From Gemmatimonadaceae bacterium (lineage in GTDB: Bacteria; Gemmatimonadota; Gemmatimonadetes; Gemmatimonadales; Gemmatimonadaceae), in NCBI GenBank assembly GCA_025453855.1, contig JALOPO010000002.1, positions 1 through 33,311 of the forward strand: a DNA stretch of 33,311 nt, written 5' to 3'. The notes under the pieces were generated by a model. It did no database searches. It was not told where the DNA came from and was given only the letters and a program-made list of their open reading frames with translations. This document shows positions 13,043 to 33,311 of this stretch, piece by piece. The translations under genes were made by a program, and so were the position numbers. Each line of letters begins with the position of its first letter. Within the stretch, counting starts at the first letter, position 1.

Positions 13043-15757
13043 TCACTGCGCGAGTGCCCGCAGGCAGAGGTGCATGGGGAGCTGCGTGACGGCGGTGCGC
13101 GGACGGAGCGCGACCTCGCGCAGGAGGGTGCGCGCCCGTGCGCTGTCGCCGATCACGCGAAGCTGCTGCACCGCCGCGGCCACCGCCACGGCATCGATGG
13201 GGCGATCGCCGCCGGTGTCGTCGGTCGGGTCGCCGCGACGCGCGATCGCGACCAGCGTGTCGGCATACGCGGTCGGCGTGAGCGACGGTGCGACGCGCGC
13301 CGCCGCCGCCAGCGCCGGTGCCAGCCCCGCGCGTCGGCGATCGGCGCCCGCGAGCGCGGCCACCGCGTCACCCTGCACCGCGTTGACGCGCGCATCGCTC
13401 CCGAGGAGCGTGCTCGCGAAGCGATGGACCGCGAGCGTGGTGTCGATCGTGACGGCGAGTCGCGTCCGTGCCTGCGGGGCGATCGCGTCGAGCACGAGGC
13501 GCTGCTGCACGAACCAGCGGCGGAGCGTGCGGCTGTAGCCGGTGTCGGCCGCGGCACGGGCGAGGATCGAGTCGGCGCGCGTGAGTTCCCCCATCGCGCA
13601 CGCCCCGCCGGCGCGCGCGGCGGTCACCAGCGGGCCGACGTAGAGCTGCGTGGGCGAGACGCGTCCGCTCTCCGCCAGCTCGTCGGCCACGCGGCGCACC
13701 AGCGCGCCGTCACGTCGTGCGAGCGCCTCGCCGATGAGCGCGAACGGCTGCTGCTCGGCCGTGAAGCGCGGGCGCAATGCGGCGATCGAGTCGGGGCGAC
13801 CGAGCGCGGCGAGCGCGATCACCTGGTTGAAGAGCGCGGTCCACCCGGTCTCCTTGCGGATCGGGTTGAAGCGCCAGGCCGCGGCGAAGTCGTCGAGCGC
13901 GCCGGCGTAGTCGCCGAGGTAGAGGCGCGCGTTGCCGCGGTTGTTGCGCGCCGAGAGCGCGGTGCTGTCGACCGCCAGCACCTCGTCGTAGATGCGCACC
14001 GCGCGCGCCGGGTCGGCATCGACCTTGAGCGCCACTTCCGCATCGAGGCGCAGCCGCTGCAGGTCGGTGAGGCGCTGCGGGAAGGCGCGGGCGCGCTGCA
14101 GCATGGCGACCGTCGAGTCGCGCACCCCGAGGTTGCCGTAGTTGGTCGCGAGCGCCGCCCATGCGGCCGCGAAGGCGGTGTCGCGCGCCACGGCACGGCG
14201 CAGCAGCGCGGTCCCCTCCTCGATGCGGCCGGCGCGGCTCAGCTCCACACCGCGCACGTACTCGTCGAAGGCATCGAGCGCCGGCGTGGCGACGTCGTAG
14301 AGCGGGCGCGCGCCGCGCAGCTCCTCGGCGCGCGCCCCCACCGCCTGCTGCAGCCTGCGGCCGAGGCGATCGACGAGCGAGACGATCGAGTCGCGCGGCC
14401 CGCGCTCGGCGAGCGTCACGAGCGAGCGGCCGTCACTGCTGGCGAGGACGTCGAGCGAGATGCTGATCGCCGGGCCGAGGTTGCCGACGGTGCCGGTGAT
14501 CGCGGCGGGGACGCCGTAGCGCTTCGCCGCCTCGACCGCGCGCACGGGGGTGATGCGTGCGGTGTCGGGCCACCCCGCGGCGCGCGCGACGCGCCGCATG
14601 TCGAGCGCGCTCAGGCCGCGCGCCACGCGCGACTCCTCGAGGCTCGCGCGCACCAGCTCGCGCACCGCGCGGGCGAGCGCGGTGTCGGCGGTGCCGGCGT
14701 CGAAGTCGCCCACCACCACCCATCCGCGCGACGGCGCATCGACGGCCGCGAGATCCACCGCCATCGGCTCGACCGTCTCGGCGGCGGCACGGCGCGAGCG
14801 CCACGTCTCGACGCCCACGATCGTCGCCGCCACGGCGAGCGTCGCCCCGAAGGCCGCCATGGCCCACGAGCGGCGGGCGGCGACGGGGCGCGGGCGCGCG
14901 GGGGCGACCGCCACGCTCCCGCTCCGCGAGAAGGCGCGCAGGTCGTCGAGTTCGTGGGCGGCGTCGGCGGCGGTGGGGCGGCGGAGCGGATTCTTGTCGA
15001 GCATCCGCTGCACGAGCGCGTCGATCCCGGCCGGGATCCCGGTGCGCTGCAGGAGCGACGGGGGCGGATCGTTCACGTGGCGCAGGAGGACGAGGGCGTG
15101 CGGGCCGCGCCCGAACGGCGGGGCGCCCGCCAGCATCTCGTACAGCACGCACCCCAACGCGTACACGTCGCTCGCTCCCGTGACCTCGTGCTCCCCCGTG
15201 CCCTGCTCGGGGCTCATGTAGGCCGGCGTCCCCACGACGTGGCCCGTCTTCGTCCACGAGCTCTTGCGGATTCCATCGACGAGGCGCGCCACGCCGAAGT
15301 CGCCGAGCACGGCGTGCCCCTCCTCAAGGAGGATGTTCTCGGGCTTCACGTCGCGGTGCACGACGGCGTGCGCGTGGGCGAAGGCGAGCGCCTCGGCCAC
15401 CTCCTGCGCGATGCGCAGCGCCTCGTGGGTGGCCAGCGCGCCGTCGTCGAGGCGGGCGCGGAGCGAGGCGCCGCGGATGAGCGGCATCACGTACCAGCGG
15501 AGCTGCTCGTGCGCCCCCGAGTCGTGGACGGGGAGGATGTGGGGATGGGTGAGCCGCGCGGCGAGCTCGATCTCGCGCCGGAAACGATCGGCGGCGTGCG
15601 GGCTCGTGTCGTCGTCCTTGAGCACCTTGACCGCCACGTCGCGCGCGTGGCGCCGGTCGGTGGCGCGGTAGACGACGGCCATGCCGCCCTGCCCGATGGA
15701 CTCGTGCAGGACGTACCGCTCCCCCAGCGCCGCTGCCAGCGCCTCAGTGCTTCGCAT
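13043..15757 (-). CDS. Serine/threonine protein kinase with TM segment and C-terminal TPR-like region
   Basis: ATG at 15757 (MRSTEALAAALGERYVLHESIGQGGMAVVYRATD); HRDVKPENILL, DFGVARL, GTPAYMSPEQG; TM at WAMAAFGATLAVAATIVGV; helical repeats in the C-terminal half. Confidence 0.96.
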   Translation of the reverse strand: MRSTEALAAALGERYVLHESIGQGGMAVVYRATDRRHARDVAVKVLKDDDTSPHAADRFRREIELAARLTHPHILPVHDSGAHEQLRWYVMPLIRGASLRARLDDGALATHEALRIAQEVAEALAFAHAHAVVHRDVKPENILLEEGHAVLGDFGVARLVDGIRKSSWTKTGHVVGTPAYMSPEQGTGEHEVTGASDVYALGCVLYEMLAGAPPFGRGPHALVLLRHVNDPPPSLLQRTGIPAGIDALVQRMLDKNPLRRPTAADAAHELDDLRAFSRSGSVAVAPARPRPVAARRSWAMAAFGATLAVAATIVGVETWRSRRAAAETVEPMAVDLAAVDAPSRGWVVVGDFDAGTADTALARAVRELVRASLEESRVARGLSALDMRRVARAAGWPDTARITPVRAVEAAKRYGVPAAITGTVGNLGPAISISLDVLASSDGRSLVTLAERGPRDSIVSLVDRLGRRLQQAVGARAEELRGARPLYDVATPALDAFDEYVRGVELSRAGRIEEGTALLRRAVARDTAFAAAWAALATNYGNLGVRDSTVAMLQRARAFPQRLTDLQRLRLDAEVALKVDADPARAVRIYDEVLAVDSTALSARNNRGNARLYLGDYAGALDDFAAAWRFNPIRKETGWTALFNQVIALAALGRPDSIAALRPRFTAEQQPFALIGEALARRDGALVRRVADELAESGRVSPTQLYVGPLVTAARAGGACAMGELTRADSILARAAADTGYSRTLRRWFVQQRLVLDAIAPQARTRLAVTIDTTLAVHRFASTLLGSDARVNAVQGDAVAALAGADRRRAGLAPALAAAARVAPSLTPTAYADTLVAIARRGDPTDDTGGDRPIDAVAVAAAVQQLRVIGDSARARTLLREVALRPRTAVTQLPMHLCLRALAQ

Positions 15758-15889
15758 GCATCCCCGTGTGGCGGACGCGGCCAAGAATGGTCGAAAGATT
15801 AAGCCACTGACAGGGGTGCGCCCCGATGGAGGTGGCGCGCCGGCCACCCGAGTGCGCAGCGGCGTCGCGCACAAGCGATCTCGGGCGCA

Positions 15890-29573: not shown

Positions 29574-29716
29574 CGCGAGGTGACCCGCCGTCGGGTCCGC
29601 GCGGTCGGGATGCTGCGGCCGCTGCAGCGGGTCATGCAGCCGGCGGGGGTGAACGGGTCGCACCGGGCGCGCGCGGCGCGTGCGTCAGCGCGTTCGTGAC
29701 GCGCCGGGCCTATCTC

Positions 29717-29782
29717 CTAAAGCTCTAGTTGACACCGCCGCCCGGCGCCCCTAGCGTGGGGAGCGAGCACCTAACGCTTTAG
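29717..29782 (+). promoter_or_regulatory. Sigma70-like promoter bracketed by two BlaI/MecI-type operator palindromes
   Basis: CTAAAGCTCTAG (29717-29728), TTGACA (29729-29734), 17-nt spacer, TAGCGT (29752-29757), CTAACGCTTTAG (29771-29782) touching the RBS aggaga; ATG at 29793. Confidence 0.8.
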
Positions 29783-29792
29783 GAGACCGCCC

Positions 29793-32700
29793 ATGCCGAC
29801 ATTCACCGAGCGCGAGCTCGACGTGATGACCGTCCTCTGGCAGCTCGGCGACGCAACCGCCGGTGAGGTCCGTGACGCACTCGCCGCCGACGGCCTCGAC
29901 CTCGCGTACAACAGCGTGCTCACGATGCTGCGGATCCTCCAGGAGAAGGGGCACGTCGCGCACGAGGTCGAGGGGCGCGCGCATCGCTTCCGCCCGCTGG
30001 TGCGGCGCGAGGAGGCGGGGCGGAGCGCGGTGCGGCGGCTGGTCGACGGGCTGTTCGATCGGTCGCCGGAGCTGCTGCTCACGCACCTGGTCCGTGACGA
30101 GCGCGTCGATCGCGCCACACTGGAGCGGTTGCGGGCGCTCGTGGAGCACGAGCTGGCCGAGGACGACGCGGGGGCACGCGGCGTCGTGGCGAAGCGGATC
30201 GGGTGGCCGACGCGCTGGGTCTGGCTGGCGGCGATGGTGGCGATGCTCGTGGCGCCGGTGGTGCCGCGCCCCGTTCCGGGACGCCTCGCCTTCACGGCGA
30301 CCACGTTCGCTGCCGTCGACGAACGTGCGGTCGCGCGGACGCGCGAGCGCATCCGTGGTGATGCGCGTGCAGGCGCTGGCGATGAATCCTCGGGTGTTCC
30401 GGGTACCATCGGCAACACGCGCGCGCTGCAGCGCAGGTCGGGCATCGGGACACCGCTCCCACCGGATGCACGCGTGGAGATCACGATGGGGCGTGTCACC
30501 GGCAACGCCGTCGTGTTAGCAGCGAACGACCGCCTGGCATGGGCGGGGCGCGTCGCAGCGGTGGCGTGGTGCGCACTTACCGTGGTCGCGCTGGCGCTGG
30601 TGGGGCTCGCCATCGGGCGGCTCGCGCGCGCGCGGCGTGAGTGGACGCGTGCCGACGAGGCCACGCACGCCGTGATCGCCGAGGCAGCGGGCAGGTCGGT
30701 GCCGGTCTCGATGTCGCGCGCGACTGGACCGGCCGCGTTCGGGCTCGGCGAACTGCAGGTGGTCCTTCCGGCTTGGGTAGGCGAACTGCCCGACGGCGAA
30801 CGCACGCTCCTGCTCGCCCATGAGGCGGCGCACATCCGCGCACATGACCCACGTCTGCTCGCCGCCGCGCTGCTGCCTGTCGCCCTTGCACCATGGCACG
30901 TGCCGCTGCTCGTCGCCTACCGGCGGCTCTGCCGCGCGGTGGAGCACGATTGCGATGCCCGTGTGCTCGCGCGTCACGGCGATGCTCGTGCGTACGGGCG
31001 ACTTCTCGTGCACACGGCCGAGTGGCTGCTCGCCGGACGTGGGGCGTGGCGCGGTGGCCTTGCCGCGCGCTGGATCCTTGCTCCCGTCCCGGCCTTCGCG
31101 GCGTCGCCGACGGAGCTTGAAGGGCGACTGCGCGCCCTCGTGCGCCGTCCCGCGAGCTGGGGCACGCGACTCGGGACGCTGTGCGTGGGGGCGATCGGCG
31201 TGGTGGCGCTGCTCGCAGCCTGCGCGGCACCGTCGCCGACGACGGGATCGTCGCGCATCACGTACGGGGTGTCATCGCTGCCACGGACGTTGCGCGACTC
31301 CATGCGACTGTACGACCGGGTGAATGACCTGCGCATGCGGAGCCGTCTCGAGGCGGTGAGGGATTCGCTCATCGACGCTGCGGCCCTGCAGGCGATTCCG
31401 GCACTCGACACGCTCGCCGGTGTCGATTCACTCAGCATCTGGGTGCTGCTCGACGACGACCTCCGCGCGGTCGCGACACGCGTCGCGCCACGTCACCAGT
31501 TCCTGTGGGCGATGGAGCGCGTCGTCCCGGGCTTCGGCCGGGACACGTACACGGTGGCCACACGCGGTACGCCGGACGCGGCACTCGCCGCGAACGTCAA
31601 CTCGTGGTCCCGCGCCTTTCCGCTGCTCGACCCCGACCGCGTCAACCAGCACGGGGCACGCGAGCTGCGCCTCCCGCAGGGGACGCTCACGGTGCAGTGG
31701 GCGCGCCTGTACGCGGGCGACAGCACATCCACGATGCGGCTCCGCGCGGCTGGCGAGCCACCGCGCGTCCCCGCGTGGTACCGCACGGTGGTCGAAGCGG
31801 TGAGCCGCGACGGCGCGGTCGCCCGGCGCGACTTCGCGGCGGCACTGGACCGGGGCCTGCGCGCGAGCCTCGCATCGCGCTACCCCGAGGCGCTCGACAC
31901 GATTGCCACGCGTGGGGAGTCGTTCGTCTGGCTCGTGCTCGGCCCGACCGGCAATGCCGTCGCGCACGCCACGGGCCGCGCCGGCATGGGCGTGAAGCGC
32001 CCGCGGACCAGCGACGCCACGCCGCTTGCGCGCGCCGTGCCCACCACACCCGAGTCGCAGCTCACCATCGATGACGCCGCGTGGCGCACGAAGTTCCCCA
32101 CGCTCAACCTCACACCCGCGAGCTTCGGCTGGACGTCGTTCCTCGTCGGCACTCGCACCGTGAACGTGCTCTGGGTGCTCACCGATGTCTCCCTCGCCGG
32201 CGGCTCCCGTACCGCGCCGGCCGCCGGCGCGCCAGGCGCTACGCCGGCTCTCGTCGCCGACACGGTGCTCGCGATGGCGCAAGCACTCCCCACCGCACCA
32301 GCGCTCGCAGCGACGCCGGCACTCGCCACGACACCAGCGCGCGCCGCAACGCCGGCACTCCCCGCAGCGCACGCCCCCGCGGCAGCACAGGCAGTCGACG
32401 CACGCCGCGCCGACTCGCTCATCGCCGATGCCTACGTCGACGCCCATGCCGCGCAATCCGCGCGCGTCGAGCGGCTCCGTCGCTCGGTGCGACGCGCGCT
32501 GTCGGCCCGTGAGGCCGCGAACATGGACCGCCTCCTGCGCAGCACCATCGTCACCGCGCGCCCCGAGCTCCTGCGTGGCCGCCGCACCGACGCCGACTTC
32601 GTCTGGCTCGTCTTCGACTCCACCGGACAGGTCGTCGCCAGCGACACCGGGCGCGCCGGTCTCGGTGTCAAGGTCGACGGCTGGCGCGGCGAACTTCTCC

Positions 32701-32873
32701 CGTTGCCGCGCGCCACCGACGTCACCGCACGTGACTCGCTGGTGCTCGACCCGCGGGCGTTCCGCACCAAGTTCGCCGGACGCGTGCATCGCGGGAGCGG
32801 CTACACCTGGCAAGGGCTCACCCTCCCCAACGGACAGATCAACGTCCTCTGGACCGTCGCGGCACGCGACTGA
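29793..32873 (+). CDS. BlaI/MecI-type wHTH repressor fused to M56 (BlaR1-like) membrane metalloprotease with repeated extracytoplasmic C-terminal domains
   Basis: N-terminus MPTFTERELDVMTVLWQLGDATAGEVRDALAADGLDLAYNSVLTMLRILQEKGHVAHEVEGRAHRFRPLV (BlaI); continues in frame into GWPTRWVWLAAMVAMLVAP, LLLAHEAAHIRAHDPRLLAAALLPVALAPWH, CRAVEHDCDARVLAR (M56), TM, then repeats ending VNVLWVLTD / INVLWTVAARD. Confidence 0.92.
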   Translation: MPTFTERELDVMTVLWQLGDATAGEVRDALAADGLDLAYNSVLTMLRILQEKGHVAHEVEGRAHRFRPLVRREEAGRSAVRRLVDGLFDRSPELLLTHLVRDERVDRATLERLRALVEHELAEDDAGARGVVAKRIGWPTRWVWLAAMVAMLVAPVVPRPVPGRLAFTATTFAAVDERAVARTRERIRGDARAGAGDESSGVPGTIGNTRALQRRSGIGTPLPPDARVEITMGRVTGNAVVLAANDRLAWAGRVAAVAWCALTVVALALVGLAIGRLARARREWTRADEATHAVIAEAAGRSVPVSMSRATGPAAFGLGELQVVLPAWVGELPDGERTLLLAHEAAHIRAHDPRLLAAALLPVALAPWHVPLLVAYRRLCRAVEHDCDARVLARHGDARAYGRLLVHTAEWLLAGRGAWRGGLAARWILAPVPAFAASPTELEGRLRALVRRPASWGTRLGTLCVGAIGVVALLAACAAPSPTTGSSRITYGVSSLPRTLRDSMRLYDRVNDLRMRSRLEAVRDSLIDAAALQAIPALDTLAGVDSLSIWVLLDDDLRAVATRVAPRHQFLWAMERVVPGFGRDTYTVATRGTPDAALAANVNSWSRAFPLLDPDRVNQHGARELRLPQGTLTVQWARLYAGDSTSTMRLRAAGEPPRVPAWYRTVVEAVSRDGAVARRDFAAALDRGLRASLASRYPEALDTIATRGESFVWLVLGPTGNAVAHATGRAGMGVKRPRTSDATPLARAVPTTPESQLTIDDAAWRTKFPTLNLTPASFGWTSFLVGTRTVNVLWVLTDVSLAGGSRTAPAAGAPGATPALVADTVLAMAQALPTAPALAATPALATTPARAATPALPAAHAPAAAQAVDARRADSLIADAYVDAHAAQSARVERLRRSVRRALSAREAANMDRLLRSTIVTARPELLRGRRTDADFVWLVFDSTGQVVASDTGRAGLGVKVDGWRGELLPLPRATDVTARDSLVLDPRAFRTKFAGRVHRGSGYTWQGLTLPNGQINVLWTVAARD
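32278..32400 (+). repeat. Low-complexity Ala/Pro/Thr coding repeat (linker between extracytoplasmic repeats)
   Basis: APALAATPALATTPARAATPALPAAHAPAAAQ encoded by degenerate gc(a/g)acgccggcactc units. Confidence 0.75.
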
Positions 32874-32892: not shown

Positions 32893-33311
32893 ATGCGCAC
32901 TCTCCTCGCCGCCGCGGCGCTCGTCGCCGCGGCCATCGCCCCCGGCGCGCTCGCCGCCCAGCAGCCTTCCGTACCTGCCACCCCCGCACGCCCCGACACG
33001 CTCGTCGGCCGCGTCGCCGCCGACAGCGGTGCCGCGCCCGACTCCATCGACGTAATCGTCACGCGCGGCCCCGATCGCGCCACTTTCCGCACGCGCACCG
33101 ACGCCCAGGGCCGCTGGCGCCTCGTCGTCGACCCGGGCACCGGCGACTACCTCGTCTACGTCACCGCACCGGGCTTCGTCGCACAGCGTCGCCGGATCAC
33201 GCGCGCCGCCACCGAGCAGCGCTTCACCATCGACATCGTGCTCACGCGCACCGCCGTGCAGCAGCTCGCACGCGTCGAGGTCAAGGCGAGCAAGCGCAAG
33301 GCGCCCGATCG
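32893..33311 (+). CDS. Secreted carboxypeptidase-regulatory-like domain protein, probably N-terminus of a TonB-dependent receptor (truncated by window edge)
   Basis: MRTLLAAAALVAAAIAPGALAAQQP signal peptide, then LVGRVAADSGAAPDSIDVIVTRGPDRATFRTRTDAQGRWRLVVDPGTGDYLVYVTAPGFVAQRRRITR...ARVEVKASKRKAPD. Confidence 0.75.
   Translation, partial: MRTLLAAAALVAAAIAPGALAAQQPSVPATPARPDTLVGRVAADSGAAPDSIDVIVTRGPDRATFRTRTDAQGRWRLVVDPGTGDYLVYVTAPGFVAQRRRITRAATEQRFTIDIVLTRTAVQQLARVEVKASKRKAPD

Follow-up and report, generated by a model that had tools for sequence, protein, structure and literature searches.

The question raised by this locus is whether a BlaI-type repressor and a BlaR1-type membrane protease are encoded here as one polypeptide and, if so, how the fusion arose and whether it could work. 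The DNA analysed (the window) is 33,311 nt long and makes up the entire contig C303 of a Gemmatimonadaceae MAG, an assembly with 561 contigs, a total of 3.19 Mb and a completeness of 74%; its named relatives belong to the Gemmatimonadota. An earlier note, made from the sequence alone, had read positions 29793 to 32873 as a single 1026-aa polypeptide with BlaI followed by M56, and this reading stands: by ORF listing and translation the forward-strand frame runs for 1026 codons from an ATG start with zero internal stops, and it carries Pfam matches to both families that exceed the curated Pfam cut-offs. In a GC-rich window, where 129 ORFs of ≥100 aa were listed, the length of a frame says little; this one is meaningful because two homologous domains share it. 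The main features of the frame are as follows.

29793..32873 (+), fused BlaI-M56 ORF, 1026 aa (ORF list, translation, Pfam)
29805..30146 (+), BlaI/MecI domain, aa 5-118, winged helix and dimerisation helices (Pfam, model, fold search)
30561..31019 (+), M56 peptidase domain, aa 257-409 (Pfam, motifs, fold search)
30819-30833 (+), HEAAH, aa 343-347, zinc motif in the M56 domain
30942-30956 (+), EHDCD (E384xxxD388), aa 384-388, zinc motif in the M56 domain

The match to BlaI/MecI (Penicillinase_R, PF03965; aa 5-118, E 9.6e-27) spans profile positions 2-114 of 115 and scores 94.1 bits against a cut-off of 22.6, which places this part in the BlaI/MecI family and agrees with the claim that the domain is complete. 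The protease motif is likewise intact: the match to M56 (PF05569; aa 257-409, E 1.2e-12) contains HEXXH and a downstream EXXXD, and both sit between the membrane helices at aa 253-275 and 459-478, as expected of the M56 family. Three-frame translation showed that BlaI and M56 continue across the junction in a single frame only, and GC3 (0.85-1.0) is unchanged through it, so the fused frame is the coding frame throughout. The locus thus encodes BlaI solely at the N-terminal end of a predicted membrane protein, and not as the free, soluble dimeric repressor typical of its family.

The nearest relative of both halves is an operon in genome G018 (MAG CoA8N_M4, L004/L033), with BlaI 78% and M56 55% identical. 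There the two are separate genes in different frames with an ATGA overlap, and the M56 protein starts with MIAAWMIASTLTGGALLLLAFAVEYVAASF, a membrane helix (TM1), followed by RRPRRWVWALVM, the part that matches the window. Separate blaI and M56 genes, usually overlapping by ATGA and with TM1 present, are the plan of nearly all pairs read in the phylum, and contig C8 of the same MAG carries a second, unfused canonical blaI-M56 pair with the ATGA overlap. As a general feature of these operons, all 28 measured Gemmatimonadota pairs (L004-L053) have the M56 gene in one relative frame (2 mod 3) after blaI, mostly through a 4-nt ATGA overlap; so constant a coupling of translation suggests that selection acts on a set repressor/protease ratio.

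In the window, the segment that separates the two genes elsewhere is missing at the following position.

30156..30206 (+), junction and linker, aa 122-138 (AEDDAGARGVVAKRIGW), the site from which the stop of BlaI, the start of M56 and TM1 are absent (relatives' loci, hydropathy, distances, model)

The junction peptide is LAEDDAGARGVVAKRIGWPTRW. The proposal that the M56 part starts at AKRIGWPTRWVW, corresponding to the end of TM1, was borne out, as the R-x-x-W start of TM2 is recognisable in 28 relatives with TM1 before it. The 28 Gemmatimonadota pairs have 122-194 nt (median 131) between the BlaI domain end and the TM2 tryptophan, and the window has 66 nt, so about 56-107 nt, with the BlaI stop, the M56 start and TM1, have been lost in frame (the minimum is 56 nt, comparison with the median gives 65 nt, and the two closest orthologs give 80 and 107 nt). 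The distance was 2 mod 3 in 28/28 pairs, and each estimate of the lost length is a number that brings the BlaI and M56 frames into register. On balance we favour the explanation that an ordinary Gemmatimonadota blaI-M56 operon suffered a deletion of about 56-107 nt (2 mod 3) that took the stop, the start and TM1, and that the in-frame product works as proposed below. This explanation draws on the sequence and its domains, on the missing segment, on the orthology of the halves, on the intact promoter and operators and on the lack of decay, and it supposes that the organism itself carries the deletion.

The deletion may instead be absent from the organism or confined to a minority strain, an assembly error or one path of a mixed population having dropped the 56-107 nt and left the frame open by chance. 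A random deletion is in frame with a 1-in-3 chance, and the fusion comes from one fragmented MAG only, with no further example in the family and phylum scans described below. However, the junction contains no direct repeat of 14 nt or more of the kind that could explain an assembler collapse; GC3 and frame run smoothly over it; one orthologous operon stands behind both halves; and the deletion ends close to functional boundaries, leaving both the BlaI domain and TM2 whole. We consider this account unlikely, though weighty enough to keep in mind. The earlier note had named a stop codon and an intact TM1 in reads or close relatives as evidence of an assembly or strain deletion. Both are seen in the nearest relatives, but these belong to other genera (BlaI 78%, M56 55%) and are not strains, so they indicate a derived deletion and do not prove an artefact.

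A further possibility is that the fusion frame is formal only, a TM1-less M56 protein being made also from an internal start, or a housekeeping protease freeing the repressor, with two proteins acting as in the relatives. A GTG codon does stand directly before GCGAAGCGGATCGGG, the AKRIG codons; by eye, however, no convincing ribosome-binding site lies at the right distance before it, and the ancestral start codon has been lost together with its ATGA overlap. This seems very improbable.

Trees of the two halves agree on their origin. The window BlaI groups with G018 and G003 (support 100/99) and the window M56 pairs with G018 (support 100/99); because both halves are nearest to one and the same orthologous operon, a chimeric misassembly of two unrelated loci was ruled out. 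The window's end branch measures 0.085 for BlaI, against 0.15 in both sisters, and 0.27 for M56, against 0.21 in its sister, so neither half is unusually fast and decay is not indicated, although a very recent event would look alike. By these comparisons the fusion looks like a recent, still-intact deletion product. The same data bear on the view that the deletion is real, recent and damaging, in which M56 is misfolded or inactive, or tethered BlaI fails to repress, and the operon, stuck on or off, will decay. Nearly all other copies read have TM1, which suggests a need for it, its loss could destabilise the protease, and the fusion does not recur in the phylum sample. Against this, the frame, catalytic motifs, operators and C-terminal domain are intact and the branch lengths normal, with the same reservation about a very recent event, and we regard damage as distinctly unlikely.

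The membrane topology was predicted from hydropathy and an AlphaFold model, which place the following segments.

30207..30275 (+), TM2-equivalent helix, aa 139-161, which here becomes the first membrane helix (hydropathy, model)
30276..30548 (+), predicted extracytoplasmic loop, aa 162-252, modelled with low confidence (hydropathy, model)
30549..30617 (+), TM3-equivalent helix, aa 253-275 (hydropathy, model)
31167..31226 (+), TM4-equivalent helix, aa 459-478 (hydropathy, model)

By hydropathy the G018 M56 protein has helices at 5-23, 40-58, 139-157 and 344-362, and the window protein has counterparts of the last three only; TM2-TM4 are kept, and the N-terminal helix of the M56 family is missing in both hydropathy and model. 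In the model of aa 1-480 (mean pLDDT 74, mostly >90 in the protease part and low in the BlaI dimer region) a winged helix comes first, then dimerisation helices that reach aa 126, a linker up to aa 138 and a membrane helix. The model's best matches among solved structures were BlaR1 (8exp, E 5e-5), then MecI and BlaI, and MecI, BlaI and Rv1846c are among the solved relatives of the BlaI part. In S. aureus BlaR1 the N-terminus and C-terminus are both outside (PMC9834060); removal of TM1 from this topology would put the N-terminus inside and leave the sides of the protease and the C-terminal domain unchanged. The earlier argument that loss of TM1 gives a cytoplasmic N-terminus thus agrees with hydropathy, with the model and with the S. 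aureus topology minus one helix, and the prediction that the BlaI part lies in the cytoplasm is well supported. With a DNA-binding domain and at least one TM region in one chain, the protein falls under the definition of transmembrane transcription regulators given in PMC10269533.

Beyond the last helix the protein carries a domain of another kind.

31227..32870 (+), C-terminal region, aa 479-1026, predicted extracytoplasmic, a repeated orphan domain (Pfam, homolog and fold searches)

The repeat (WLV...FP.L...VLW) of aa 479-1026 occurs elsewhere in the family only in G018. No Pfam match was found in aa 410-1026, and no search found a penicillin-binding fold in the C-terminal region; a fold search with a weak model (pLDDT 60) gave no meaningful match at all. 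By these searches the fused protein lacks the class-D beta-lactamase-like sensor domain that characterises BlaR1/MecR1, and the identification as a BlaR1-type sensor found no support on this point, as the domain matches no penicillin sensor by Pfam, among family homologs or in the fold search of the low-confidence model. Since no relation between the sensor domain and penicillin sensors was seen, 'BlaR1' is a name by ancestry and not by function, and a link of the fused protein to beta-lactams is not supported. In another M56 protein of the set (L077; G229 C80), the C-terminal part resembles a TonB-receptor plug segment (IYLDGVRM...AIERVEVLKGPAAAALYG).

Upstream of the start codon, comparison with relatives revealed a candidate control region with these elements.

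29714..29731 (+), operator-like dyad 1, CTCCTA-N6-TAGTTG, overlapping the -35 box (upstream comparison, genome search)
29729..29734 (+), -35 box TTGACA (sequence)
29752-29757 (+), -10-like box TAGCGT, 17 nt after TTGACA (sequence)
29768..29785 (+), operator-like dyad 2, CACCTA-N6-TAGGAG, overlapping the ribosome-binding AGGAG (upstream comparison, genome search)

TTGACA was found in 49 of the 62 upstream regions compared, and the candidate operator dyads flank the promoter as they do upstream of many relatives' blaI genes, in keeping with the operators of the family. Across the phylum, BlaI operators come as two conserved copies of CTACTA-N6-TAGTAG, the first over the -35 box (TAGTTGACA) and the second following the -10 box; the CTCC variant occurs in the window, its nearest ortholog and a few others. 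A search of the 74%-complete genome, a quarter of which is missing, for other sites with both the CTA and TAG cores (≤2 mismatches) gave none, so to that extent the fused regulator may control only its own operon. A further gene follows at a distance of 19 nt.

32893..33311 (+), next gene, with a signal-peptide-like start and a CarboxypepD_reg domain, cut by the contig end (19 nt downstream)

This gene is a candidate for co-transcription and may belong to the operon of the fused gene; its product, probably secreted, is likely to be a partner or target of the fused protein.

Whether the fusion recurs was addressed in several collections, none of which yielded a second case. A Pfam scan of 181 family genomes left the window BlaI as the only one with an open frame of >300 aa among the best ~150 matches listed, and the 79 BlaI-bearing frames of the fetched loci included no second frame with BlaI and M56 except the window's own copies. 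A query across the junction gave no stop-free match spanning it elsewhere in a 400-genome phylum sample (four candidates scored per genome). The plasmid BlaI matches listed, from several phyla, carry the annotation BlaI regulator, M56 being a gene of its own in every match that extends to it, and none was a fusion; the literature searched contained no report of a BlaI-M56 fusion. Within the family genomes, the phylum sample and the plasmid matches searched, this is the sole instance of the fusion. Several candidates were inspected and rejected: long open frames with BlaI matches (G026 C3, G031 C5, G005 C62, G015 C7, G010, G011) have no in-frame M56; one alignment over both domains with three TGA codons (G229 C80) resolved into two separate frames; and BlaI-TAG cases with long frames (G222, G232) are separate ORFs.

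In the mechanism that we propose under the deletion reading, the fused protein would insert into the membrane and keep BlaI on the cytoplasmic side, joined to the first membrane helix by about 12 linker residues; it would dimerise via its BlaI and M56 parts; and the membrane-bound BlaI part would bind both operators of its own promoter. A signal at the extracytoplasmic domain would switch the protease on, which would then cut the BlaI dimerisation region at aa ~96-100, in cis or in a neighbouring molecule, and end repression. By eye, LTHLV at this position lies near the counterpart of the S. aureus BlaI site N101-F102. In S. aureus, BlaR1 undergoes self-cleavage in cis and directly cleaves BlaI at N101-F102, and cleavage inactivates the repressor (PMC9834060); by analogy, a cut in the fused BlaI would be more likely to lift repression than to set free a functional repressor, in contrast to the release in cis that the earlier note had proposed. 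A tethered repressor on operators beside its own gene is plausible, since membrane-bound transcription regulators are described as common (PMC10269533). That the fusion forms a working one-protein BlaI-BlaR1 circuit, an anchored repressor that senses the outside, cuts itself and derepresses its own operon, having arisen by a one-step deletion, is a tentative idea that we doubt somewhat more than we believe. The fusion is a correct reading of the sequence with a sensible topological argument, yet it is one event in one draft genome.

The BlaI-BlaR1 and MecI-MecR1 systems of staphylococci and bacilli (8exp, PMC9834060) share with the fusion the repressor family PF03965, the M56 gluzincin PF05569 with HEXXH and EXXXD, operators at the promoter and a C-terminal domain outside the membrane. 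They consist of two proteins, with the protease N-terminus outside and a class-D beta-lactamase-like sensor, whereas the fusion is one polypeptide with one helix fewer, an N-terminus predicted inside and an unrelated C-terminal domain. PetR-PetP of Synechocystis (a BlaI-type regulator and a BlaR1-type protease, responding to copper; PMC7896320) shows a BlaI-M56 pair at work beyond beta-lactam resistance and, unlike the fusion, comprises two separate proteins. CadC, ToxR and TcpP resemble the fusion in having a DNA-binding domain tethered to membrane helices, and the gonococcal PilS-PilR chimera Rsp in being made from a sensor-regulator pair; as described in PMC10269533, these four differ in having no protease domain in the same chain, and the passages that describe them mention neither BlaI nor peptidase domains.

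If real and active, the fusion would be a natural minimal route from two-protein regulated proteolysis to a one-component membrane regulator. TM1 is what sets the M56 N-terminus on the outer side, and so a single deletion both removes the stop and puts the DNA-binding domain on the right side of the membrane. It would also offer a test object for BlaI recognition by BlaR1-type proteases, with enzyme and substrate fixed at 1:1. As an artefact or dead end it would hold little interest.

Elsewhere in the window, positions 13043-15874 (-) hold a 942-aa frame for a PknB-type Ser/Thr kinase with a long C-terminal extension.
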